Below, in pieces: positions 12,205 through 23,666 of a DNA stretch of 32,285 nt (the stretch's first letter is position 1; each line of letters opens with the position of its first letter). Source of the DNA: a virus; the IMG/VR virus record IMGVR_UViG_3300025120_000282, positions 1 to 32,285 of that record, one strand, 5' to 3'. Position numbers and translations under genes: made by a program. Under the pieces are notes generated by a model that was not told where the DNA came from, did no database searches, and saw only the letters and a program-made list of their open reading frames with translations.

Positions 12205-12957
12205 CTATGGATAACTTTTCATCACGCTACTACCTACAGAAAATAGTTCAACAGGCGTTGTGTCTGTGTTTTCTAGCTTAAATCTCATGAAATATCCTCG
12301 TGCCCCATGAGACTCAGCAACAGGATCTTTATAGTAAAGAGCAAATTGACCTGCTAAAGGCATATTTAATACTACCGCAATGGTTAAAGTGTTAGTTGTC
12401 TGATTAATAGCTGTAACTATACCTGTAGGCCGAGATGATGTTGGTGTTACCTGATGGTACAAGGTGTCACCTATACTAATTATACTTCCTAAACTAACAT
12501 TAAAAACAACATCTATTCCTACAAAAGCTACATTAACAGCTGCAATCTGTCCTATACCATTAGCAGACCTTAACTTAAAGTTTACCGTTGTGCTTTTGTT
12601 TCTAATAAAAGAAAACCATTCTCCTTCTTTTTGCTCAAAATAAGTGCTTAGCATATCGCCTGAGCCAAGATCAGTTTCTAAAGAAAGAACTCCCCAGGAT
12701 GCATCACTTTCTAAAGACATCGTTTTAAAAAGTTTTATAGTTTGAGGCTCGACATTAAATACTCCTGTAATGTTAGAATTGTATTGTGTACCGTAATAAT
12801 TATTTCTAACTTCATTTGTGTTGTGTCTATAGAGCTGACCTTGATGAAAAGAATAAAAATAACTATTCATACCCATCATGTATTCAGGTAGAAAAGAATA
12901 AAAAGACGGCCATCCTTTCACTCCGTCACTATAAGATAATGTTTCTTTAATTGCCAT
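12205..12957 (-). CDS. crAss-like tail structural protein, 250 aa
   Basis: The N-terminal half carries a pattern I associate with proteins next to the stabilisation gene in Bacteroidota podoviruses: SYSDGVKGWPSFYSFLPEYM (8-27), a strand-rich FYSFHQGQLYRHNT (34-47) and VRNNYYGTQY (50-59). Residues 112-119 (GEWFSFIR) and 212-229 (PVAESHGARGYFMRFKLE) look like one domain interrupted by an inserted beta module at about 131-211. That insert (SIGDTLYHQV ... TGIVTAINQTTNTLTIAV ... FALYYKD) resembles repeats in the 317-aa head protein. It has no signal peptide or membrane helix. It is probably part of the tail hub or muzzle. The ATG starts one base after the stop of the 55-aa gene, which supports a common message. 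The exact role is unknown. Confidence 0.65.
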   Translation of the reverse strand: MAIKETLSYSDGVKGWPSFYSFLPEYMMGMNSYFYSFHQGQLYRHNTNEVRNNYYGTQYNSNITGVFNVEPQTIKLFKTMSLESDASWGVLSLETDLGSGDMLSTYFEQKEGEWFSFIRNKSTTVNFKLRSANGIGQIAAVNVAFVGIDVVFNVSLGSIISIGDTLYHQVTPTSSRPTGIVTAINQTTNTLTIAVVLNMPLAGQFALYYKDPVAESHGARGYFMRFKLENTDTTPVELFSVGSSVMKSYP

Positions 12958-12958
12958 A

Positions 12959-13126
12959 TTAACAGTTTACAAAAGCCAAAAGCCTTCCATTTAATTGTTC
13001 TCTTACTCTACCATTAGATGAATAAAATCCGTCAGGAGCTGGAGTAGTTAACGCCTGATCTGTATACATAGCATAAGCAAACTCAAAGTCATTTCCATCA
13101 TGCCAAAAATTTAAAAATTGTGCCAT
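12959..13126 (-). CDS. small structural-type protein (55 aa) with a GFY...NG...C ending
   Basis: This short frame starts at ATG 13126 and ends with TAA at 12961-12959. It fits exactly between the 1648-aa stop (5-base gap) and the 250-aa start (1-base gap). The product begins MAQFLNFWHDGNDFEFAYAM and ends with PAPDGFYSSNGRVREQLNGR, then LLAFVNC. The second half repeats the pattern at the end of the preceding 1648-aa protein (VGFYFSRAQSVIEVGANGEV ... FPCN), and NFWHD echoes its GFWHS. Such short C-terminal units ending in Cys are, in my recollection, frequent in tail proteins of Bacteroidota phages. It could be a small tail cap protein or a detached copy of a C-terminal domain. Confidence 0.68.
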   Translation of the reverse strand: MAQFLNFWHDGNDFEFAYAMYTDQALTTPAPDGFYSSNGRVREQLNGRLLAFVNC

Positions 13127-13131
13127 ATCTT

Positions 13132-16100
13132 TTAATTACAAGGGAATAAATTAACACTCAATACTTCTCCGTTAGCTCCAACCTCTATTACACTTTGAGC
13201 TCTACTAAAATAAAATCCTACATCAGCTGGTACACCCCCAAAACAACAATTAGCTGGGTTAGAACCGCAAGCTTTATACGCTATATCTCCAACCACAGGC
13301 TCGTTTGTTGATGGTGCACCAGGTGCTGCCGAATGCCAGAAACCTGCGTACGCCCCTGGATTGTTAAGCCATAAACCGTTAGGGCCATTTCCTCCATTAC
13401 AAGCCAAAGCAGCAGTTGTTTGCACAGCAGGATCCATTATAAAATTAGACGGGCCTATACAGGGTTGATTAACCGAACACCCAACACAAGCATCTGCCTG
13501 ACTTACTGAAGAATAACAAAAGTCGTTATTTTGTCTATCTCTTAAATCCCAAACTAAATACAATGTTTGTGTGCTAGACGTTATAGATAAATTGGCTGAA
13601 GTAGCTTTGTAAATTTGATTAACTCCATTAGCATCTGGCTGAGAACCTATAATAGGTGTAGACTCATTAGTTAATAACGTTAAATCAAAAGTAGACCCAC
13701 TAGACGCTGGAACAGCGTTACTTGTTATTGCATAAAATCTATTTTCTGTATCATTAAAAACATAAGTATCATTTGGAAACTTGTTAGCTTTCATTGTAAC
13801 TGTAGATCCATTACTAGGATATAATCCTATAGAAGTCTGTCCTGTATTAATTGAATACGCACTTACATTATTTGTTGCACTAAAAGTTACTTGATTTGAA
13901 TCTAAAGGACTAGTAAACTGTCCGTTACTCCATCTGTATTCGTAATGAATAGTTTGTGCTCCTGAACTAATTAATCCGCTAATTGGAGTTCCTAAAACAA
14001 CTTGTACTACATTTAAAGTTTGAGTTGTAACGCAATTAAAAAACAAATTATAAGAAGAAGATGAGTTAGGGGTAATAGTAATAGTAGCTGTAGTAGGGAA
14101 TGGAGCGGCTTTTTGAAATGTTATTACACTGGAAGTAGTTAGATTATTGCTTGTTGTAATATTATTGTTCCAGTCAATTATAGAATTTATATCCATTCCT
14201 GGTGAAGCAGAATTTATCACAACATCTACATTACCAGTAGCTGTTCCTAGCTCAACAGTTAAAGTTAAAGGTGTAGAGCTGTTAATTCTTTGTATTTGAG
14301 CACCACAATCTATAGTCGAGGCAGGGAAAGGAACAGGTGTAGAGTTAGAAGAAAAAACATATTCGTTCATATAAGGATCGTAACCCCCTAGTTTTTGTGT
14401 GTTTAGTTGGTCTGCAAATTTATCTCTAAAATAAGACCTCATTCCATAAGTAGATATAACCTCTAACTGATCGCTTTTCATTGTTGCACCAGTAAGTTTT
14501 AGTATAGCACCTCTCTTTGTATCACTAAAATACACATCTCTTCCCCAGCTTGTAAAACTTTCAGGGTTAAAACTTATTCCATACTCTTCTATTCTAGCTA
14601 CTTGCTGACCTAATATTTCTGGAACAGAAACTATAACTCCGCCGCCAGTAGAATCACTTAATAAATTTTTATTAACCAAGACATAAGATATTTTGTCTTC
14701 TTGTAAAAGTAATATATCTGTTTCTCTTGAATGTAATTTCATTATAGGCCCGTACACTAACTCACAGTCTTTAAAGTTTACCAAGCCTAAATTAAATTCA
14801 TTTAAATTATTTACATTACTTGTTCCGCTATATACCCCGCTATATGTTAAGCTCGCTAATCTGTCTGCTTCTTTAAATTCATTATTAGACACCGCTGTTA
14901 CTCTTTCTCCTAAAATAAAATCTTTTGCCGTAGACAAATCTCTATACCTATAGCTTTCAACTCCATTACCATAAGTAAAACAATCGTGAAAAGGTAGGGT
15001 AACGATTGCAGGAATACCTGAGGAAATAACCTGGTTTTGACCAACGATTGTTCCGTCCCCATAATGAGCAAGATCTCCATTTATATCAGGAAGAATATTA
15101 TACATTTCAGAAGAGTCATAAAACAAGCTTGGATCGGACTCAGCTGGTTTTGTCTCAAAAGCCATAAAGTTGTCGTTTATGCTAATAGAAATCTGTGCTT
15201 CAATACGCAAATGAAAGTTTACTCCAGGAGCAGGGTAACACCCTTCACTACACATTCTCATACCTAAAAACAAAGGACTTCCTGAGTTTATCTGTACCCA
15301 ATAAAACTGCATTTCTTCGTCAACTTCAGCAGGAGTATCTCCTGGTAAAAACACTTGATCGTAATATCTAAAAGTAATATCTTCATCTCCTCTAGAAACC
15401 ATAAAAAGAGCTGGGTTAATATTTTCTTGATTCCAAAAATCTCTAAAACTTACCGCATCTTGACTAGCTTTTACTATGTAGTTTTTAGGAGAACTCACAC
15501 CTAATAAAGACTTTCTGCAAAATACAGACGAATCATTTCTTCTTGTTTTAAATCTCATGCTTACGACTGATCCTAAAGGAATAGCAATAGGTGCTAATGT
15601 GATAGGTCTGTGAACAGGATACTCTATGAGAGGATTTTCTTGTAAATTTGTTTGGCCAAGAACATTATAAGTTCTTGCGTCAAGAAATTGAAGATCTATT
15701 ATTGAAAGAAGATTTGTTCTAGCACTATACCCTTGAGGTTGTAATTTCATATACAGCCCTGCTGGAGCACCTGTTGGCAGTGGGGATACTGGCGGAGTTA
15801 TGGTTGTATCTCCTGCGGCTAAAGCCTCTACCTCTAAAACTGTAGTTTCAACTAAACCTAGCACGGCATCTCCAGTGCTTTCAACTTTAACAGTCAGTAT
15901 ATCTCCCTTAGAAACTAAAGAGGTAGACTCTCCTTGAAGTCTAACGTATGAAATATTAGCTTGTTGAAAGTCTTGAAATATTTGATTGCTATATATAATA
16001 TTATAATCTCCAAAAGAAGGCTTTAAAACAAACTTATATTTTGTTGCCCAAGAAGGAGGCCTGTTTTCAATATTAATTTTTATTGTATTAATATCAATAG

Positions 16101-18078
16101 AAGTGCTTGAATCAAAAAACACAGTGTTGTTTGGAGACACTAATGCAGTTGACGCTCTTCCAAACTCATCCATATATATTATAGCCGCGTCATAATTTCT
16201 GTTACTATGAAGACTAGAAGAATCAGAAACACTTGAAAAAACAAAATTACAATCCGAAGACTCTCCTCTGTATGGTAGTATGTTTTGTGTTATGCTTGTA
16301 AAAGAATAACTAAAATATTCATACACATTCACTATAGCACCCCCTCCCCCAGGATTGTACTGGTACTGAATAGCTGGGACTTGAATTTTAAAAGTGTTTC
16401 CAGAAACAACTAATCTAAATCCTTGCTGCGATGGTGAAGAAGAAAATTTTCCAGAATTTACAAATTCATATTGTACTGGCGAACTAGGTGCATTAATTAC
16501 TTTATATAATTCATCCGTTAAAGAAAGGCCATACACCGCAGTTGGTGAAATAGGAGTAATAGTATTACTATCTCCTATAGCGGCAGCAAACTCATTACTT
16601 AATAAAAAATCATTAAAAGAAACATAATTGCCTTGAGCCACTACAATAGTTTCAATAGAAAATTCTGTTGATGGCGTGTTAGTTGAAAATGTAGTAGGAA
16701 AATTAGAACTACCTGTATCCCCTCCTAAAGGTGTATTATAAGGAGCAGGCTGAACAACGCCAGAAGTTAGTTTTACTCTTAATGTAAATTGAGAATTTAT
16801 TAATATTGGAAGAGAAATACCTAAATCATCTAAATCAAATGTAGCTGTATCTAAAGAAACCTGAAGTGACGCAGCAGGATTTATTATGTTTGTTGCGGTT
16901 GTTGTTAAAATTGCTGAAACATTAGCATTTACTACTGGTACTGAGCTAGTTGAGGCAGTAAAGTCAATAGGTATTTCCGCACCATCAGAAGTAGTTATGT
17001 TATATTGATCTACATAATTACCATAAATCAGTCTGTTTCCCATTATAGTTTGAGACTTTGCTAAACGAGGAACATTATCATACAACCTTAACAATTCGTC
17101 TTGACCTATAAGACTTAATATTTTTGAATTTGTAAAGTTTACTGTTTGCAAACTATTATCAGACCATCCTAAATCAGTTTTTTTATACCTTTCTATTACA
17201 AAAATATTATTGCTTACCGACTCTTTATAAAGTAATTCAACAGCAATAACTAATTTACCTCCCGTATTAAAAGTTACTTCAACACCATTAAATGTGTTCT
17301 CCATACCTTCGTTGTAATAATTACTAGGATCAAAAAAAAACGCCCCTGGTTCAAAAGCTGAAGTAGTGTATAATGATGTAGCACTATATTCGTTATCAAG
17401 ATATTGATAGCGATATGCAAAACACAAAAACCTATCAACTATATAATTCTCCTCTCCAGGAACATTAACTAATTTAATATCAGGACGAGCAAGCTCATAC
17501 TCTGTAACGCCTAAAGATGTAGTATAAGAACTAAATCCTGGAGGCTTAACGATAACATTTAACTCTTCTGCTGAAATCTGATCCACCCCAGCTAAAGGTT
17601 CTGAATAATTTCTTTTTATATTTATTTTTCGTGGAGGATTAAAGTCGTCTGTAAAAAACAGCAAGTCTTCTATTAAACTTACACCAGTTACTAAAAACTT
17701 TGGATCAAAATTTAATACGGTTTCACTAACCACATGATATGTTACAGACTGACCTGTAGTATTATACGATATAATCATATCAACTACTCCTGAACTTGAG
17801 GTTGCAGAAGAAGGGTCGTGAACAAACCAATAAATATTTTCGTTTACTCCATCTGAAAAAGCACCTATACAAGTAGCGTCTCCTGACAAAACTTGTCCAT
17901 TATAACTAATACTAGTAAGTTTCGTGTTGCCTTTTGAGTTTTCTACAGCACCGATCTCAGTAGTTTCTGTTGATCCTAGCCTTACATTAAGAGCGTCTAT
18001 ATATTGTCCTGGAGGTACTAAGCGTTCATCAACGCTTTTATTCATTTTACCAGCTATAAAATTCGTGTTAATATCCAT
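13132..18078 (-). CDS. tail stabilisation / muzzle-type protein (P22 gp10-like), 1648 aa
   Basis: The N-terminus MDINTNFIAGKMNKSVDERL ... PPGQYIDALNVRLGS matches the pattern of crAss-like stabilisation proteins. These start with an N-x-D-x-R-L-(V/L)-P-x-G-x-Y-x-D-A-x-N segment and have GAVENSKGN shortly after. P22 gp10-like proteins close the tail below the ring proteins. The chain is beta-rich throughout with many short Ser/Thr/Asn turns, as in propeller or jelly-roll structures. No transmembrane segment is seen. Around residues 720-780 there is a VGD-type beta module (SKGDILTVKV ... GDTTITPPVSPLPTG). The last 160 residues are cysteine-rich (DFCYSSVSQADACVGC) and end GFYFSRA ... NGEVLSVNLFPCN, a pattern shared with the neighbouring 55-aa protein. 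It follows the two ring-protein genes with one base between, the usual order in these phages. It probably forms the main tail tip and may contact fibres. Confidence 0.75.
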   Translation of the reverse strand: MDINTNFIAGKMNKSVDERLVPPGQYIDALNVRLGSTETTEIGAVENSKGNTKLTSISYNGQVLSGDATCIGAFSDGVNENIYWFVHDPSSATSSSGVVDMIISYNTTGQSVTYHVVSETVLNFDPKFLVTGVSLIEDLLFFTDDFNPPRKINIKRNYSEPLAGVDQISAEELNVIVKPPGFSSYTTSLGVTEYELARPDIKLVNVPGEENYIVDRFLCFAYRYQYLDNEYSATSLYTTSAFEPGAFFFDPSNYYNEGMENTFNGVEVTFNTGGKLVIAVELLYKESVSNNIFVIERYKKTDLGWSDNSLQTVNFTNSKILSLIGQDELLRLYDNVPRLAKSQTIMGNRLIYGNYVDQYNITTSDGAEIPIDFTASTSSVPVVNANVSAILTTTATNIINPAASLQVSLDTATFDLDDLGISLPILINSQFTLRVKLTSGVVQPAPYNTPLGGDTGSSNFPTTFSTNTPSTEFSIETIVVAQGNYVSFNDFLLSNEFAAAIGDSNTITPISPTAVYGLSLTDELYKVINAPSSPVQYEFVNSGKFSSSPSQQGFRLVVSGNTFKIQVPAIQYQYNPGGGGAIVNVYEYFSYSFTSITQNILPYRGESSDCNFVFSSVSDSSSLHSNRNYDAAIIYMDEFGRASTALVSPNNTVFFDSSTSIDINTIKINIENRPPSWATKYKFVLKPSFGDYNIIYSNQIFQDFQQANISYVRLQGESTSLVSKGDILTVKVESTGDAVLGLVETTVLEVEALAAGDTTITPPVSPLPTGAPAGLYMKLQPQGYSARTNLLSIIDLQFLDARTYNVLGQTNLQENPLIEYPVHRPITLAPIAIPLGSVVSMRFKTRRNDSSVFCRKSLLGVSSPKNYIVKASQDAVSFRDFWNQENINPALFMVSRGDEDITFRYYDQVFLPGDTPAEVDEEMQFYWVQINSGSPLFLGMRMCSEGCYPAPGVNFHLRIEAQISISINDNFMAFETKPAESDPSLFYDSSEMYNILPDINGDLAHYGDGTIVGQNQVISSGIPAIVTLPFHDCFTYGNGVESYRYRDLSTAKDFILGERVTAVSNNEFKEADRLASLTYSGVYSGTSNVNNLNEFNLGLVNFKDCELVYGPIMKLHSRETDILLLQEDKISYVLVNKNLLSDSTGGGVIVSVPEILGQQVARIEEYGISFNPESFTSWGRDVYFSDTKRGAILKLTGATMKSDQLEVISTYGMRSYFRDKFADQLNTQKLGGYDPYMNEYVFSSNSTPVPFPASTIDCGAQIQRINSSTPLTLTVELGTATGNVDVVINSASPGMDINSIIDWNNNITTSNNLTTSSVITFQKAAPFPTTATITITPNSSSSYNLFFNCVTTQTLNVVQVVLGTPISGLISSGAQTIHYEYRWSNGQFTSPLDSNQVTFSATNNVSAYSINTGQTSIGLYPSNGSTVTMKANKFPNDTYVFNDTENRFYAITSNAVPASSGSTFDLTLLTNESTPIIGSQPDANGVNQIYKATSANLSITSSTQTLYLVWDLRDRQNNDFCYSSVSQADACVGCSVNQPCIGPSNFIMDPAVQTTAALACNGGNGPNGLWLNNPGAYAGFWHSAAPGAPSTNEPVVGDIAYKACGSNPANCCFGGVPADVGFYFSRAQSVIEVGANGEVLSVNLFPCN

Positions 18079-18079
18079 A

Positions 18080-19000
18080 TTATTTCAGCCATTTACTCTG
18101 TCCTCTCATGTTCATTAATAGTCTTCCAGGGTGCATATTACTTAATCTTAGTTTTGCGTTTCTCAATAATGATGACTTATCCTTTCTAGCTCTATTAACT
18201 ACATATTCTTGAATACCATATTTTACATTTAATAATGAGTACCTTATGTATGCATATATAAATTCTTCAAATAATTTATTAACTTGTATCTTAGAATTAT
18301 TTCCTTGCTCCATACCATCTGAAACATATTCTAAAACTACAGATTGTCCCGCTAAATCTGAAGATAAATATATAACTCCCTCTTGTTTGTTTATTGTAAA
18401 CGTAGGATTTACATTTGCAGTCTCTGTGTTTAAACCAAATCTATCCCCTATTCCATATTCAAAATACCATTCACCATTACAGCAAAATCCTTCCTGCCCG
18501 TTGTAAGGCCCAGGCCCTAAATATAAAGCTCTCATTCCTCCCCCTTGTCTTGATAAATCCACTAAAGAGTTTTCAGGTTTTAACACATTACCATCTAAAT
18601 CAAATAAAATCTGTGCATTATTGTCTTGCAGATAAGAACTACTCCATTGTGTTTGTATGTTTTCAACTAATGGATATAAAACACCATCTCTGTAATACGA
18701 TATCCTAACATAATTAACATAATCTTGAGGTAAAATAAATCTTATTTGCGAGTCTACAGTTAATTGCAATACTTTAATTTCTTTCATCGCATCGTAATTT
18801 AACTCTTGTATTCCTCTCTTTGCGTGAAATAAAACTTGATACCTTTCTATGTTATTTAATATCTCATTGTTACCTTGATATATTAACATAAAATTAGACA
18901 CTATATCTTCTAAGCTTACATACTGATATGAACCCCAGTTCTCATCCTTAGGAGATACTTGATTGTTTTCGTAATATTGATAGTCAGTAATATATGCCAT
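18080..19000 (-). CDS. tail ring/tubular protein, 306 aa
   Basis: Residues 28-75 (VSLEDIVSNFMLIYQGNNEI ... RYQVLFHAKRGIQELNYDAMKEIK) are a pattern I recall from the conserved crAss-like tail ring (tail tubular) proteins. LPQDYVNYVRISYY (94-107) follows on a beta strand. The C-terminus is helical and basic (VKYGIQEYVVNRARKDKSSL ... MNMRGQSKWLK), suited to packing against a neighbouring ring. A CC pair in FCCNGEWYFEYG (near 172-183) is unusual for a cytoplasmic virion protein. It sits between another ring/adaptor gene (3-base gap) and the large stabilisation gene (1-base gap), which is the standard order for portal-tail connector proteins. I am confident in a connector or ring role; which ring it forms is inference. 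Confidence 0.75.
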   Translation of the reverse strand: MAYITDYQYYENNQVSPKDENWGSYQYVSLEDIVSNFMLIYQGNNEILNNIERYQVLFHAKRGIQELNYDAMKEIKVLQLTVDSQIRFILPQDYVNYVRISYYRDGVLYPLVENIQTQWSSSYLQDNNAQILFDLDGNVLKPENSLVDLSRQGGGMRALYLGPGPYNGQEGFCCNGEWYFEYGIGDRFGLNTETANVNPTFTINKQEGVIYLSSDLAGQSVVLEYVSDGMEQGNNSKIQVNKLFEEFIYAYIRYSLLNVKYGIQEYVVNRARKDKSSLLRNAKLRLSNMHPGRLLMNMRGQSKWLK

Positions 19001-19003
19001 TTC

Positions 19004-19990
19004 TTATACTTGTATTTGGTTTTCTTGCACTTCCTCTGTTGATCCAAAATTATACACTTGTTGCTCTCTAATTTCTATTCCTACATATTGACATATTTTT
19101 GCTATCAACCCTGGTTCATCAGACAATGGTAATTCAAAGTCTTGAAAGTCTGCTGCCGAAGCATCAAATAATGGTTCTCCTTCAACTATTGTAACAAAAG
19201 TCCATTTAGGTGCTTTAGGATATCTAACGTATTGTGTTTTTATAGCACCCGCAGCTTGTATGGTTGTTGGGTAAACCGTAATGGTATTACCGTCTAAAAC
19301 GTAAGCGGGAAATAATGAAGATGGAGATGTTATTGTAGAGCTAGTTAAATAAAATAATTTATTTTGACTTACTCTTTCTACCTCAACTATTGTGTTTGCA
19401 TCAAATATACTATAGTTTTCAGCAGGAGGTACAGTAGCTGATTGAAATATATCAGTTGCTAAATTTAAAGTAGTAGCGTCTACCACTGAATTAACAAATG
19501 ATTCAGTTAAAGTACCCGTATTAACAACTAAACTGCCTGTAAGCGGAAATACTGTAAAGCCAGTAGCTCCAGTATTAAAAGCTGGTGGAGAAGGTTGGCC
19601 AACTAAGGCAGCATTTATTAACTGTTTATTATTACTTGCACTTGTTGTTCCTGATGTAAGAAGTGTAGGGTAATGAAATATTTTATTTATTAAATAATAA
19701 TCTAACGGTAAGTTCCAAGAATTAGCTCCGTTACCTCCAATTAAAAAAGCTTGTACTGAAAAAGAATCTATTACCTCAACTAATCCTTTAGTTATATCAG
19801 CGTACCCCGTTCCCGAAAGTCTTTGGTTTTCTCTATTTATATATTGATTGTACTGATAAAAGTAATCCTCAAATAAGTCCATTTGTGCTTGTTGAGCATA
19901 CAAATTGAAGTCTTGAGGAGATAAGTACCCGTAATTATTTTTATTTATAATTGCCAATACTGTATTCCTAACATTATTAATCATAGCCAT
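19004..19990 (-). CDS. head-tail adaptor / tail ring protein, 328 aa, with inserted beta module
   Basis: The start (MAMINNVRNTVLAIINKNNY) and helical N-terminus (GYLSPQDFNLYAQQAQMDLF) are typical of P22 gp4/T7 gp11-like adaptors in Bacteroidota podoviruses. LPLDYYLINKIFHY (94-107) and IVEVERVSQNKLFYLTSSTI (201-220) look like one continuous core. Between them, at about 112-197, lies a sequence resembling the beta modules of the 317-aa protein (VVDATTLNLATDIFQSATVP, then ENYSIFDA). The downstream core continues VLDGNTITVYPTTI and VRYPKAPKWTFV. It opens a new transcription unit: a terminator lies about 34 bases upstream of the start codon and a TATATTTG promoter-like element about 23 bases upstream. 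It probably joins portal to tail. Confidence 0.72.
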   Translation of the reverse strand: MAMINNVRNTVLAIINKNNYGYLSPQDFNLYAQQAQMDLFEDYFYQYNQYINRENQRLSGTGYADITKGLVEVIDSFSVQAFLIGGNGANSWNLPLDYYLINKIFHYPTLLTSGTTSASNNKQLINAALVGQPSPPAFNTGATGFTVFPLTGSLVVNTGTLTESFVNSVVDATTLNLATDIFQSATVPPAENYSIFDANTIVEVERVSQNKLFYLTSSTITSPSSLFPAYVLDGNTITVYPTTIQAAGAIKTQYVRYPKAPKWTFVTIVEGEPLFDASAADFQDFELPLSDEPGLIAKICQYVGIEIREQQVYNFGSTEEVQENQIQV

Positions 19991-20013
19991 AGAAAATACA
20001 TTTTAAATATCTA

Positions 20014-20021
20014 CAAATATA
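20014..20021 (-). promoter_or_regulatory. candidate Bacteroidota -7 promoter element for the tail/ejection operon
   Basis: The minus strand reads TATATTTG, fitting TAnnTTTG, a few bases past the T-tract of the terminator at 20024-20058 and 23 bases before the ATG at 19990. A terminator followed at once by a promoter is a natural operon boundary. No TTTG -33 element is evident because the upstream bases are the terminator itself. Confidence 0.5.
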
Positions 20022-20023
20022 AG

Positions 20024-20058
20024 AAAAAAAAAGAGGTTACTTTTTTTAGTAACCTCTT
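20024..20058 (-). terminator. strong Rho-independent terminator after the 317-aa head gene
   Basis: An 11-bp perfect stem pairs AAGAGGTTACT (20031-20041, read on the plus strand) with AGTAACCTCTT (20048-20058), around a 6-base loop. On the minus strand the hairpin is followed by nine T residues, partly shared with the stem base. It begins 20 bases after the stop of the 317-aa gene. The plus strand has no comparable T-run beyond the hairpin, so it acts on leftward transcription. Confidence 0.85.
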
Positions 20059-20078
20059 AAGAATTGTTGTAAAAACTA

Positions 20079-21032
20079 TTAAGCTGCTGTTACGCTTTCT
20101 ACTGTTATAACCGCGTTTTCAAATATCGGCATTTGTACTCTTGCAGTAGAAGGGCCAGGAGGTTCAGGCATATCAACACCTATATATCCTCTCTTCATAG
20201 CATTTTGTATTGCAATAGCAACAGCACGTCCAGTTCCTTGATCTGAATGGTCTATTGTAACTTCATCATTATTAACTGTGTTTAACTGAATTATAGTTTG
20301 TTCTGCTCCAGCTCTGTCAGCTAAAACTATCTGATCCATTTGAATTAAATATGTTGAAGCTACAGTTGAGTCAAAAATATTATATGCGTCTCCAAGAGCA
20401 CCTACTGTAGAGCTGCATCTAAATCTATTTTTATCTATAATTACAGTAACTATTTCACTAAAGTTTTGTGTAGTGTTTTCATATACATCACCAACAGATA
20501 AAGTAGTTAAAAAAGACTGTCCATTACTATAAACTTCATTTGAAGGAGCTGAAATTGTAAAATTATCATTAAACAAGGTTGAGCTGTTAAAAATATCAGC
20601 CGTTAATGTTAATGATGTTTCGTTAATTAAAGCAGCTACAGTAGTTGTCGTAGAAGCTGTTGTGTTTGTTACAGTATCTCCAACTCTAACTTTACGAGCT
20701 GTAAATGTTGATCCTACAGCATTTAATTGATTTAATTTACGAACAGCAAAAGTTTCTCCACCTGCATTAAATAAATTTGTTGCAAAAGTTAACTTATTTG
20801 TTGCTACTGCCGTACAAGCTGCTTGCGTTGACGCAGTAATATTATAAGCTATATCTCCAACAACCACTCCTAAAGCAACAAAGTCTACCGCTGCATCATT
20901 TAACTCATTAGTTGCAGCCCCTGCATTTGTTCCTGAGGCTATTCCTGCCGAAGCGGCTGATGGTATTACTAAATCAAGTGTACCAGAAGATACAACTGTG
21001 TTAATTGGAATTTCTAAGTATTTCGCTCTCAT
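20079..21032 (-). CDS. beta-rich head protein with three tandem VGD modules, 317 aa
   Basis: The protein shows three internal repeats of about 57 residues: about 43-98 (VVGDIAYNITAS ... NKLTFATNLFNAG), 101-161 (RVGDTVTNTTAS ... TSLTLTADIFNSS, NFTI) and 163-221 (SVGDVYENTTQN ... YNIFDS). The common frame is VGD-x-V-x-N-x-T, then V-x-x-I, L-x-L, IF and Y/F-x-I. The flanks (MRAKYLEIPINTVVSSGTLD at the start and the final 95 residues) form another beta unit that resembles the neighbouring 92-aa protein, notably EVTIDHSD against LVTIDYVDG. It is Thr/Ala-rich with no membrane segment. The place between the capsid and ring genes, within the capsid transcription area, suggests a capsid decoration or auxiliary head protein. 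The gene begins 4 bases after the 92-aa gene and ends just before a strong terminator. Confidence 0.65.
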   Translation of the reverse strand: MRAKYLEIPINTVVSSGTLDLVIPSAASAGIASGTNAGAATNELNDAAVDFVALGVVVGDIAYNITASTQAACTAVATNKLTFATNLFNAGGETFAVRKLNQLNAVGSTFTARKVRVGDTVTNTTASTTTTVAALINETSLTLTADIFNSSTLFNDNFTISAPSNEVYSNGQSFLTTLSVGDVYENTTQNFSEIVTVIIDKNRFRCSSTVGALGDAYNIFDSTVASTYLIQMDQIVLADRAGAEQTIIQLNTVNNDEVTIDHSDQGTGRAVAIAIQNAMKRGYIGVDMPEPPGPSTARVQMPIFENAVITVESVTAA

Positions 21033-21036
21033 AAGA

Positions 21037-21315
21037 TTATGCGTTTACTATAGAAGTTACAGCCTTTGGTAGAATTAGCTCAAAGTATGGAGAAGTCCAT
21101 CCTGTTGATAATGCTGTTTCTATTGAGTTTACTATATCTAAATATACATCTGAATCTAATTGAGCTGCTGTAGTAATAGTTGTAGTCGTTCCATCAACGT
21201 AATCTATTGTTACAAGAGCCGCTGTAGCAGTTTGTGTAGCTACGGCTTTTATACCGTTACAGCTAATTAATTGACCTGTAAAAGGTGCGTTTGTTATTTT
21301 TAAGAATTTTGTCAT
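21037..21315 (-). CDS. small beta-rich head-associated protein, 92 aa
   Basis: The product begins MTKFLKITNAPFTGQLISCN and continues with strands typical of a small beta sandwich (AALVTIDYVDGTTTTITTAA) and a helix (YLDIVNSIETALSTGW). It ends in FELILPKAVTSIVNA. Its body resembles the two flanks of the adjacent 317-aa protein, suggesting duplication followed by module insertion in one copy. It is probably an auxiliary capsid or decoration protein, inferred from position just after the capsid region and from composition. The ATG at 21315 has an A-rich leader (CTTTTTATAAA-ATG), and a promoter-like TATCTTTG lies 32 bases upstream. It has no signal peptide. Confidence 0.65.
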   Translation of the reverse strand: MTKFLKITNAPFTGQLISCNGIKAVATQTATAALVTIDYVDGTTTTITTAAQLDSDVYLDIVNSIETALSTGWTSPYFELILPKAVTSIVNA

Positions 21316-21347
21316 TTTATAAAAAGGTTTTAATGATTATTAATTAA

Positions 21348-21355
21348 CAAAGATA
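21348..21355 (-). promoter_or_regulatory. candidate -7 element before the small head genes
   Basis: The minus strand reads TATCTTTG (TAnnTTTG) in the 46-base gap between the 251-aa and 92-aa genes. The same bases form one arm of an 8-bp inverted repeat (AAAGATAA at 21349-21356 and TTATCTTT at 21366-21373, plus-strand reading), which spans the upstream stop codon. The site could therefore be a weak hairpin rather than a promoter. Confidence 0.35.
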
Positions 21356-21361
21356 ATGAAT

Positions 21362-22117
21362 CTATTTATCTTTATTTAAAGCCTTTTTAAGCAACTTATA
21401 TGTTTCAATACCTTCATCAGATTGCATATATGAGGCTACTATATAATATGCTTCTTCTCCATAAGGAACAGTAAGCAATTTGCTTTTATTCTTTTTTAAA
21501 GAAAAATAAACATCCTTTTTGTTATTTTGAAAAGCTAACAGTCCATTGTCAAAAAATTGTGCTACTACATTAGTAAGCTCTAACATTGGATCGTTTAAAA
21601 CCTCCATAAATTCGTAAGGCTCATGTTTTGCAAAAAGCAATACATCTCTTTTTAATTCTGGTATAGACATTTTGTCCACTGCAACCCCTAAAAACACCCT
21701 ACACACACTTATTAATTTTTCAGTATCTAATCCTCTAGCTAATACTTGTGCATCTAACTCTAGTTCAACACTTTCTAATTCTTGAGCCGCATCTCTTTGA
21801 GTATTTATTTCTACAAATGTAGACCCGTTCCCTGGATGATAAGATAAAAACTTTTGTAGCACTTGATTTTCTTTACTAACAGCTAACATTCCGTCTTCAA
21901 AAACGATAGGTTCTAATATAGCATTACCATCTTGCTCATCTTCAAAAGGAGATTTTTGATTTCTTGCGTAACGCAAAGGTCTGTTTAAACCTTGATCTTC
22001 GTCAAAATACATTAATGGTGATCTTCTGTGGTGTCTTGACGCTAACATAAAAGATAAAGGAGATCTTTCTCCTGTTAACTTATACGATTTATTTACTAAT
22101 TTTTTTACTTTGTTCAT
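21362..22117 (-). CDS. conserved head-module protein of unknown function, 251 aa
   Basis: A basic N-terminus leads into SPLSFMLASRHHRRSPLMYF (19-38) and then DEDQGLNRPLRYARNQKSPF (39-58). A strongly conserved-looking patch EDEQDGNAILEPIVFEDG follows; I associate it with a family found in marine phages, but I cannot name a function. The remaining two thirds are helical (VLQKFLSYHPGNG; AQELESVELELDAQVLARGL; a FDNGLLAFQNNKKDVYFSLK stretch). No catalytic motif is clear and there is no membrane segment. It follows the capsid terminator and has an A-rich leader (AAATTAAATAAA-ATG) without an obvious promoter, so expression may depend on read-through past the terminator. Possible roles are head vertex protein or assembly factor; both are guesses from position. 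Confidence 0.6.
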   Translation of the reverse strand: MNKVKKLVNKSYKLTGERSPLSFMLASRHHRRSPLMYFDEDQGLNRPLRYARNQKSPFEDEQDGNAILEPIVFEDGMLAVSKENQVLQKFLSYHPGNGSTFVEINTQRDAAQELESVELELDAQVLARGLDTEKLISVCRVFLGVAVDKMSIPELKRDVLLFAKHEPYEFMEVLNDPMLELTNVVAQFFDNGLLAFQNNKKDVYFSLKKNKSKLLTVPYGEEAYYIVASYMQSDEGIETYKLLKKALNKDK

Positions 22118-22145
22118 TTTATTTAATTTTAAGTTTATTTAATTT

Positions 22146-22174
22146 AAAAAAAAGGGAGGAGTTACCCTCCCTTT
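22146..22174 (-). terminator. strong Rho-independent terminator after the major capsid gene
   Basis: A 9-bp stem (AAAGGGAGG at 22151-22159 paired with CCTCCCTTT at 22166-22174) closes a 6-base loop. On the minus strand it is followed by a run of eight T residues, partly shared with the stem base. It lies 19 bases after the capsid stop. The GC-rich stem stands out sharply in this AT-rich genome. Confidence 0.85.
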
Positions 22175-22193
22175 CTAGTTTACTACCACCTAC

Positions 22194-23666
22194 TTACTGT
22201 TGGAATATAAAGAAGTTATTCGCTCCTAAAGTACACACAGCTCTTTCAGACAAGAAGTTTACAGTCATACTATCCGTAGTATTTGTTCTTGCACCACCAG
22301 CAGAACCAGTAATCCAAGTTTTGTAACGTCTGTCTTCTGATTCAGAAGCTCTGTATCTTACATGAAGGAAAGGTCTCTTTGCGTTCTTACCTAAGATTTG
22401 GTCATATACAGTAGTTGATCCAGCTGGAACCATAAGCCCATTTACTGCACCACCTTCTAAACCTCCTCTCATTGTAGGATCATTTAGGTATTTCCAGTCA
22501 GACTTATAGAAGTCATAACCTCTTCTAAATCCTGTGAAACCTAAATTAAGAGCCATTTCTTTATCATTATCAAATAAACCGTATGAAGTACCACCTGCTC
22601 CGTAAGAGTTTTGTGCTGCTAACATATCATCTATATCAAATGAGAAATTTCTATTAACGAATAATACATTTTCTTCAATAGATCCTTGTCTGTCTAATCT
22701 CTGAATAACTGAGTCAAAACCTGCTAAAGTAACTGGGTTACCTCCACTCCAGATGTTTCCTCTGTTTTGCACAGAAAAGAAAATTCCATCAGAACCAGAG
22801 CCATTTGCTACACCAAGTCCAGAACCTACTACTTGACCTTGTAAGAAATCTGCCGCACCAGAAGCCGCACCTGCTGGAACTGCTTCCACCATAGCTGTTT
22901 CTAGGTAATCTTCAAAACGTAGTCTTGTTTCATGCTCTGATTTTAGGTACCATAAGTATCCATTAGCTCCATTCTCAGTAGTAACTTCTATCCACCCGAT
23001 TTGAGCCATATCAGAACCATTAACAGTATACTGGTCTTTTATAATAATTGGTTTGTTATCAAATATTAGATCTTGAGATTCTAAAGATCCAGCCATTCCT
23101 GGCGTTCCTTTTCTAAATTCAGATCCGTAAATAAACATTGTAGCTGTAGTTCCTACTCCAGTCCATGCTTGTCCAGCTGTCTCATAATAGGCTACTGTGA
23201 ATGTACCTGGAGCTGCTGCTGTTGGAGCTGCTGTTACGATTGCTTTATTAGATAATGTTGTTCCATTAGTATCAAGAGAAATCATTATCGTTTGACCTAC
23301 TCTAATTGCACCAAAACCATTTGCTGGTGCTGATGATGTAGGAGGGGTACTTGTTAATTGACCAGCTGGAATAACCCAAGTGGCTGCGTCAACACCAGCT
23401 ATAGATCCTGTTGTCATAGCTGTATATTTAGTGTGTAACCTTCCTTGTTCTGCCCACTTAATCATATCTGAGTTAGTTGGCATTTCAGCACCTACCATTC
23501 TTAAGAATGAAGCTACTGATCTATTTCCATAACGCTCAAATTCTTTTTCATAAGTATCTGGTAAATACTGATTTAGAAAATCAAAGTTAGTTATGTAGTT
23601 TGTTGGTTGGGCAACTTGCTGAGCACTTGGCTGCAAATTAAACCCAGGGACTGCGTTTACTGGCAT
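22194..23666 (-). CDS. major capsid protein (HK97-fold, crAss-like), 490 aa
   Basis: It lies directly after a scaffold-like gene and carries patterns of crAss-like capsid proteins. The N-terminal helix has FLNQYLPDTYEKEFERYGNR (30-49) and the core has GSEFRKGTPGM (181-191). The segment IIIKDQYTVNGSDMAQIGWI follows from residue 207, and the C-terminal half has EHETRLRFEDYLETAM and YRASESEDRRYKTWITGSAG. Residues about 85-182 are Thr/Ala/Gly-rich and beta-like (VGQTIMISLDTNGTT ... VAYYET ... ATMFIYG). They interrupt the helical E-loop and core order, so they are probably a surface insertion domain. There is no N-terminal cleavage site that I can identify. A strong terminator follows immediately, as expected for the most abundant virion protein. 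The HK97 fold itself is inferred from family resemblance. Confidence 0.85.
   Translation of the reverse strand: MPVNAVPGFNLQPSAQQVAQPTNYITNFDFLNQYLPDTYEKEFERYGNRSVASFLRMVGAEMPTNSDMIKWAEQGRLHTKYTAMTTGSIAGVDAATWVIPAGQLTSTPPTSSAPANGFGAIRVGQTIMISLDTNGTTLSNKAIVTAAPTAAAPGTFTVAYYETAGQAWTGVGTTATMFIYGSEFRKGTPGMAGSLESQDLIFDNKPIIIKDQYTVNGSDMAQIGWIEVTTENGANGYLWYLKSEHETRLRFEDYLETAMVEAVPAGAASGAADFLQGQVVGSGLGVANGSGSDGIFFSVQNRGNIWSGGNPVTLAGFDSVIQRLDRQGSIEENVLFVNRNFSFDIDDMLAAQNSYGAGGTSYGLFDNDKEMALNLGFTGFRRGYDFYKSDWKYLNDPTMRGGLEGGAVNGLMVPAGSTTVYDQILGKNAKRPFLHVRYRASESEDRRYKTWITGSAGGARTNTTDSMTVNFLSERAVCTLGANNFFIFQQ

Follow-up and report, generated by a model that had tools for sequence, protein, structure and literature searches.

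A putative roaming beta domain in virion proteins of crAss-like phages

Here we describe a small beta domain, about 65 residues long, that recurs in unrelated virion proteins at differing sites and in differing copy numbers, and whose insertion sites are found cleanly empty in other homologues. On balance, we favour the reading that this module is a virus-borne, self-folding domain, repeatedly inserted into loops of virion proteins and acting there as an acidic coat or weak adhesive. The stretch of DNA analysed, hereafter the window, comprises positions 1-32,285 of the IMG/VR virus record IMGVR_UViG_3300025120_000282 (32,285 nt). A first-pass annotation of the window had proposed that one beta module is shared by five of its virion proteins. 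Judged by HMM and hhalign comparisons, two of them (the 317-aa and 328-aa proteins) carry it, whereas the 250-aa protein, residues 720-780 of the muzzle protein and the capsid protein do not. The earlier observation is thus partly confirmed. Its interpretation, that unrelated virion proteins have come to share a module, is partly supported: it fails for three of the five window instances but holds through the relatives of the window phage, in which the mobility of the module is stronger than first claimed.

The window belongs to a crAss-like phage (Crassvirales), with muzzle, portal, terminase and ring proteins of crAss type. PHROGs and Pfam families for phage portal, terminase, capsid and ring-region proteins were found in it, and the Pfam families crAss_MUZ and crAss_MUZ_C matched, above the cut-off, the 1648-aa protein and residues 50-120 of the 250-aa protein, respectively. 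On the minus strand, the genes run in the order terminase, portal, 381-aa, capsid, 251-aa, 92-aa, 317-aa, 328-aa, 306-aa, 1648-aa and 250-aa, the 381-aa protein holding a scaffold-like position between the portal and capsid genes. A 189-aa protein at 29820-30389 matches a phage co-chaperonin GroES family. The closest isolates are found among Flavobacterium, Maribacter and Cellulophaga phages.

The module is best seen in the 317-aa protein (20079-21032, minus strand), a putative head or virion decoration protein. As the first-pass annotation had it, three copies lie here in tandem, at residues 41-99 (20736-20912), 100-161 (20550-20735) and 163-221 (20370-20546), all on the minus strand and all inserted in a base domain made up of residues 1-24 and 222-317. 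The three copies match one profile, the first and second being alike at z=7.1 and the second and third at z=4.3. The module starts with ...GT-TxATxxNKLVD, has a core of the form VGDxVxNTT...VTxV...LTLS and ends in Gxx-Y-x-I-Y. Its composition is marked by acidity (mean net charge -4.9, with 98% of the copies negative), a high content of threonine, serine and asparagine (33% together), very little tryptophan (0.2%) and almost no cysteine.

In an AF2 model of the 317-aa protein, copy 1 has strands at residues 43-45, 61-64, 69-77, 80-83 and 94-98, and equivalent strands come in identical order in every repeat, that is, five strands for each 58-62 residues or so. The pLDDT is about 90 in copy 1, about 74-90 in copy 2 (mostly 80-95 over these two copies) and lower, 56-77, in copy 3; the base domain was poorly modelled from the 12 sequences used. 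We tentatively call the predicted structure a small five-strand barrel. Strand order fits the SH3-like or small beta-barrel class, while the best PDB match of the tandem-module model in Foldseek, a Klebsiella phage depolymerase, is weak (E 4e-3, low TM). Against BFVD the same model gave twenty matches below 1e-3, many to environmental phage proteins and a few to iridovirus proteins; the latter, uncharacterised and from insect and fish iridoviruses, may reflect a chance likeness of small barrels. No name or match for the module turned up in Pfam, PHROGs, NCBIfam or PDB sequences. Pfam scans of 22 members, and then of seven consensus-like modules and one two-module protein, returned no family, and nothing meaningful was matched when the PDB was queried with module, head, capsid and ring sequences.

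The second carrier in the window is the 328-aa tail-barrel ring protein (19004-19990, minus strand; phrog_14543), whose AF2 model matches the phicrAss001 tail barrel 7qoj in Foldseek (E 8e-6, prob 1.00), the fold being common to the phicrAss001 ring proteins gp34/35/40/43. Its single module occupies about residues 133-197 (19400-19594, minus strand) within an insertion that spans about residues 108-200. The HMM built from the three copies of the 317-aa protein found this region at E=2.7e-5 and an HMM from the head family only at E=2.7e-4 (in a set of 2208 proteins), the best E for reversed and shuffled control proteins being 0.081. A module profile made from many relatives, with all proteins of this kind (earlier read as adaptors) left out, aligned with the region at E=8e-19 in hhalign. 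In the model (mean pLDDT 82), the module forms a separate strand set between core strands 110-115 and 202-206, in line with the earlier view that it interrupts one continuous core. Homologues in which the module is cleanly absent do exist: 109 distinct ring proteins have one module, all at one site, and roughly 80 other homologues, 220-270 aa in length, lack the insert of some 70-90 residues between the two core strands. In the closest filled and empty pair (L224 and L350), the proteins are 66.5% identical outside a clean insertion of about 70 residues. The module was found in every close relative of the window ring protein, and the ring proteins of the Flavobacterium, Maribacter and Cellulophaga phage isolates are without it.

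The HMMs gave no significant match in the other three proteins, whose claimed modules fail the HMM check that the first-pass annotation itself had set out. For residues 131-211 of the 250-aa protein (12325-12567, minus strand), the E-value was 0.064 and then 9.4, with an hhalign probability of 32%. This region, far from interrupting a core, is kept in every homologue, phages L002 and L003 included, and represents an ancestral section of the muzzle C-terminus of crassviruses. Residues 720-780 of the muzzle protein (15739-15921, minus strand) had no HMM match and about 1% in hhalign, and residues 122-184 of the capsid protein no HMM match and 0.2-0.4%; compared by hhalign with the profile from the relatives, both regions score no better than unrelated control regions. 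There is an insertion in the capsid protein, but it is of another kind: residues 85-195 (23082-23414, minus strand) align in all homologues and correspond to the crassvirus I-domain, an E-loop insertion that covers residues 79-180 of the phicrAss001 capsid protein (PMC10172136).

At the head locus, the relatives have one, two or three modules at a single place in one base domain. The protein next to the 317-aa protein, of 92 aa (21037-21315, minus strand), is a paralogue of this base with no module. In hhalign, its family matched the module-stripped base of heads with one or two modules at E 1.4e-17 and that of three-module heads at E 9e-9 (prob 95.7), while unrelated controls matched nothing. 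The bases of three-module and of one- or two-module heads gave no significant match when compared directly, and the link between them therefore runs through the 92-aa family. The module copies form a series of zero, one, two and three on one base domain, of which the 92-aa protein of the window is the zero-copy form. One relative (L033) has two small genes of the 92-aa type in tandem plus a two-module version. Five others (L045, L102, L333, L361 and L202) encode further proteins of the head region whose bases, bearing one or two modules, are too diverged to group. In L121 (1030-2238, minus strand), the three modules of a 402-aa head protein follow a glycine-rich stretch of a different kind, VVAGGAGYAIGNTFTING, which is apparently an inserted domain of another type.

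The 1648-aa muzzle protein of the window (13132-18078, minus strand; crAss_MUZ) has no module at all, and in relatives five muzzle sites are filled, equivalent to window residues ~500-518, ~550, ~1000-1020, ~1300-1311 and ~1478-1506. All five are empty in the window. Alignment and mapping place two of them at residues ~1301-1311 (14146-14178, minus strand; filled in L026 and L030) and ~1002-1013 (15040-15075, minus strand; filled in L058 and L068). The module-bearing muzzles amount to 16 entries and 11 distinct proteins. The crassvirus muzzle is split into two genes in the window (12205-12957 and 13132-18078, minus strand). In the phage elemoF (L003) both parts make up a single protein of 1493 aa, of which the 250-aa protein corresponds to the C-terminal part. 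From about residue 1245 on, the 1648-aa part consists of a new C-terminal extension, and the muzzle of Maribacter phage Panino is split elsewhere than in the window. Insertions in the IG2 and crass regions of the muzzle have already been noted to affect surface properties (PMC10172136).

Beyond the ring protein, the head base and the muzzle, the hosts of the module include a spike base (NF048002), a protein of about 810 aa (phrog_38559), a 793-aa protein and several single proteins, mostly in uncultured, mostly marine, crAss-like phages. After masking of the modules, the hosts fell into 18 clusters; since some of these clusters hold a single kind of head-type protein in diverged form, we take as a safe count that sequence comparison places the module in at least six unrelated families. 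The ~810-aa protein has four module sites. Two of its members, L236 and L239, share 71.5% identity once the module is set aside, and have it at residues 552 and 647, about 95 residues apart. In L157 (9715-13415), a module-free member of 745 aa adjoins a 487-aa protein with two modules, and the domain may thus shift between adjacent genes. The spike-base family, 85 aa long and module-free, is split by one or two modules in the relatives. The residues flanking the module still match NF048002 (52.2 bits in L001 and 47.3 in L146, cut-off 28), and the empty form is seen in an 88-aa elemo homologue, against 156 aa with the module. Two modules also occur in a spike-base-like protein of a near-identical relative (58 kb) of the window phage; this protein lies outside the window. 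The 793-aa protein adjoins a non-crAss terminase (phrog_2); judged by the PHROGs of genes beside this and other such hosts, the phages concerned are not crAss-like.

The DNA pattern for VGD(I/V)VxNTT was found in at least 120 stretches of viral contigs, and among the matches listed a true module was present in 101 of 114 new loci; the loci overlap, with several per contig, and distinct sequences were counted where possible. The same pattern, run against 257 Gb of genomes from bacteria and archaea, gave 38 matches, none of them a true module, a result that, the pattern being strict, indicates a tendency of the module to be absent from cells and is no proof of it. Apart from chance matches, a tblastn search of 50,697 phage records with single modules and a consensus returned nothing but the metagenomic Manatee Spring genome, and the module alignment contains no conserved run of sufficient length for a scan for related sequences. 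Modules in different host families are at most about 61% identical over the whole module, and modules of one genome are no closer to each other than to others. With identities this low and no enrichment within genomes, nothing points to recent transposition; the insertions rather seem to have been fed, over long times, from a wide shared pool. We infer that they came about by illegitimate or homologous recombination.

Could the modules resemble each other without common descent? Small barrels rich in threonine, serine and asparagine might do so; the module does have a biased composition, and the rejected regions of the window, all three, are of just that kind. Nevertheless, identities of up to 61% extend over the whole module between non-homologous hosts, reversed and shuffled controls gave nothing below E 0.08, and the adaptor-free profile, with its E of 8e-19, recovered the ring protein; the profile results contradict convergence, which we consider the least probable of all the readings weighed here. 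Hardly better is the prospect of repeated loss in place of insertion, every host having had the domain ancestrally. The tree of modules labelled by host is a weak one: its 80 columns are too few to resolve it, it has 37 changes where 14 would be the minimum, and the starred branches force few of them. Its counts do not separate gain from loss, which leaves some room for such losses. However, sites differ within one family while other sites are empty, so that an ancestor with modules everywhere would be needed, and the family models, such as the 85-aa NF048002, are without the module. Ancestry with repeated loss is therefore very improbable.

Under the insertion reading that we favour, the domain would fold alone with its ends close together, and could be spliced into a surface loop leaving the host fold intact; the strand layout and the clean junctions suggest that insertions are tolerated because the domain is self-folding and its ends meet. 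With 12 ring subunits per ring and six muzzle subunits in phicrAss001 (PMC10172136), one insertion would lead to many displayed copies. The inserted modules may make up an acidic surface coat or a weak adhesive and in this way adjust how readily particles attach to, or come free from, the polymers of the host surface and each other. In the window phage, such a coat would decorate the tail-barrel ring protein once and the head-region protein three times. Surface decoration, as we infer it, fits the virion nature of the identified host proteins and the acidic composition, and exposure of the insertion sites can be argued from homology to phicrAss001. A wider proposal, that a hitherto undescribed, virus-restricted domain is a plug-in common to the particles of aquatic phages, passing from one unrelated virion gene or phage group to another and letting a phage re-coat head, neck, tail tip and spikes with one surface chemistry, seems to us evenly balanced.

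Resemblance to the T4 protein Hoc makes us prefer surface coating or weak adhesion, with two live rivals. Each copy might instead bind host polysaccharide, multiplication of copies giving avidity through the capsule. Many copies on outward-facing proteins, hosts such as the spike base and the muzzle, and a weak likeness in Foldseek and PHROGs to tail-fibre, depolymerase and endosialidase proteins would all agree with glycan binding, but the structural likeness is poor (PDB matches at E >= 4e-3 with low TM) and, with 0.2% tryptophan, there is no conserved aromatic binding platform. We regard it as possible, if somewhat unlikely. Still less likely is that the modules act as structural cement, contacting neighbouring subunits and stabilising ring, head or muzzle with no host contact. 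The retention of the module in every close ring relative suggests a fixed role there, and the crassvirus capsid I-domain, together with an auxiliary protein, is a stabilising insertion of this sort (PMC10172136). Yet neither the place nor the number of modules is fixed in the muzzle, the head base or the ~810-aa protein, and homologues work without them.

A second, unrelated add-on family, at work in ring, muzzle, spike-base and head proteins of uncultured phages, would make the remodelling of phage surfaces by domain insertion a general and testable process. As a concrete marker for it, the module offers a profile, sites and empty alleles; it also accounts for several "hypothetical" genes and for length variation in crAss-like phages. 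Add-on domains of phage particles are known mainly as Ig-like domains.

Among known systems, the Ig-like domains of T4 Hoc are likewise acidic add-on beta domains on a conserved virion-binding domain; Hoc is an acidic fibre of such domains on a capsid-binding base and was proposed to control clustering and dispersion of particles (PMC10385173). The Ig fold of Hoc takes 80-100 aa, while the module has about 65 aa and no Pfam match. No Ig profile matched it, and the five strands of the AF2 model are not the 7-9-strand sandwich of Ig-like domains. Unlike Hoc, the module is also found as a loop insertion in proteins of the ring, the muzzle and the spike base. The crassvirus capsid I-domain is also a beta-barrel inserted in a crassvirus virion protein (PMC10172136), but it is unrelated to the module by profile and is present at one fixed site in all homologues. 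The BACON domain of crAssphage is likewise repeated in tandem in a crAss-like phage protein (PMC6949934); no BACON profile matched the module in the Pfam scans and, unlike the BACON repeats, the module roams between unrelated protein families. The spike base RCAP_Rcc01079 (NF048002), in turn, is an 85-aa host family without the module, and it is the copies of the relatives that are split by it. The best reading of these comparisons is that the module is a new roaming virion domain, which works like the Ig-like add-ons of phages but belongs to a different family.
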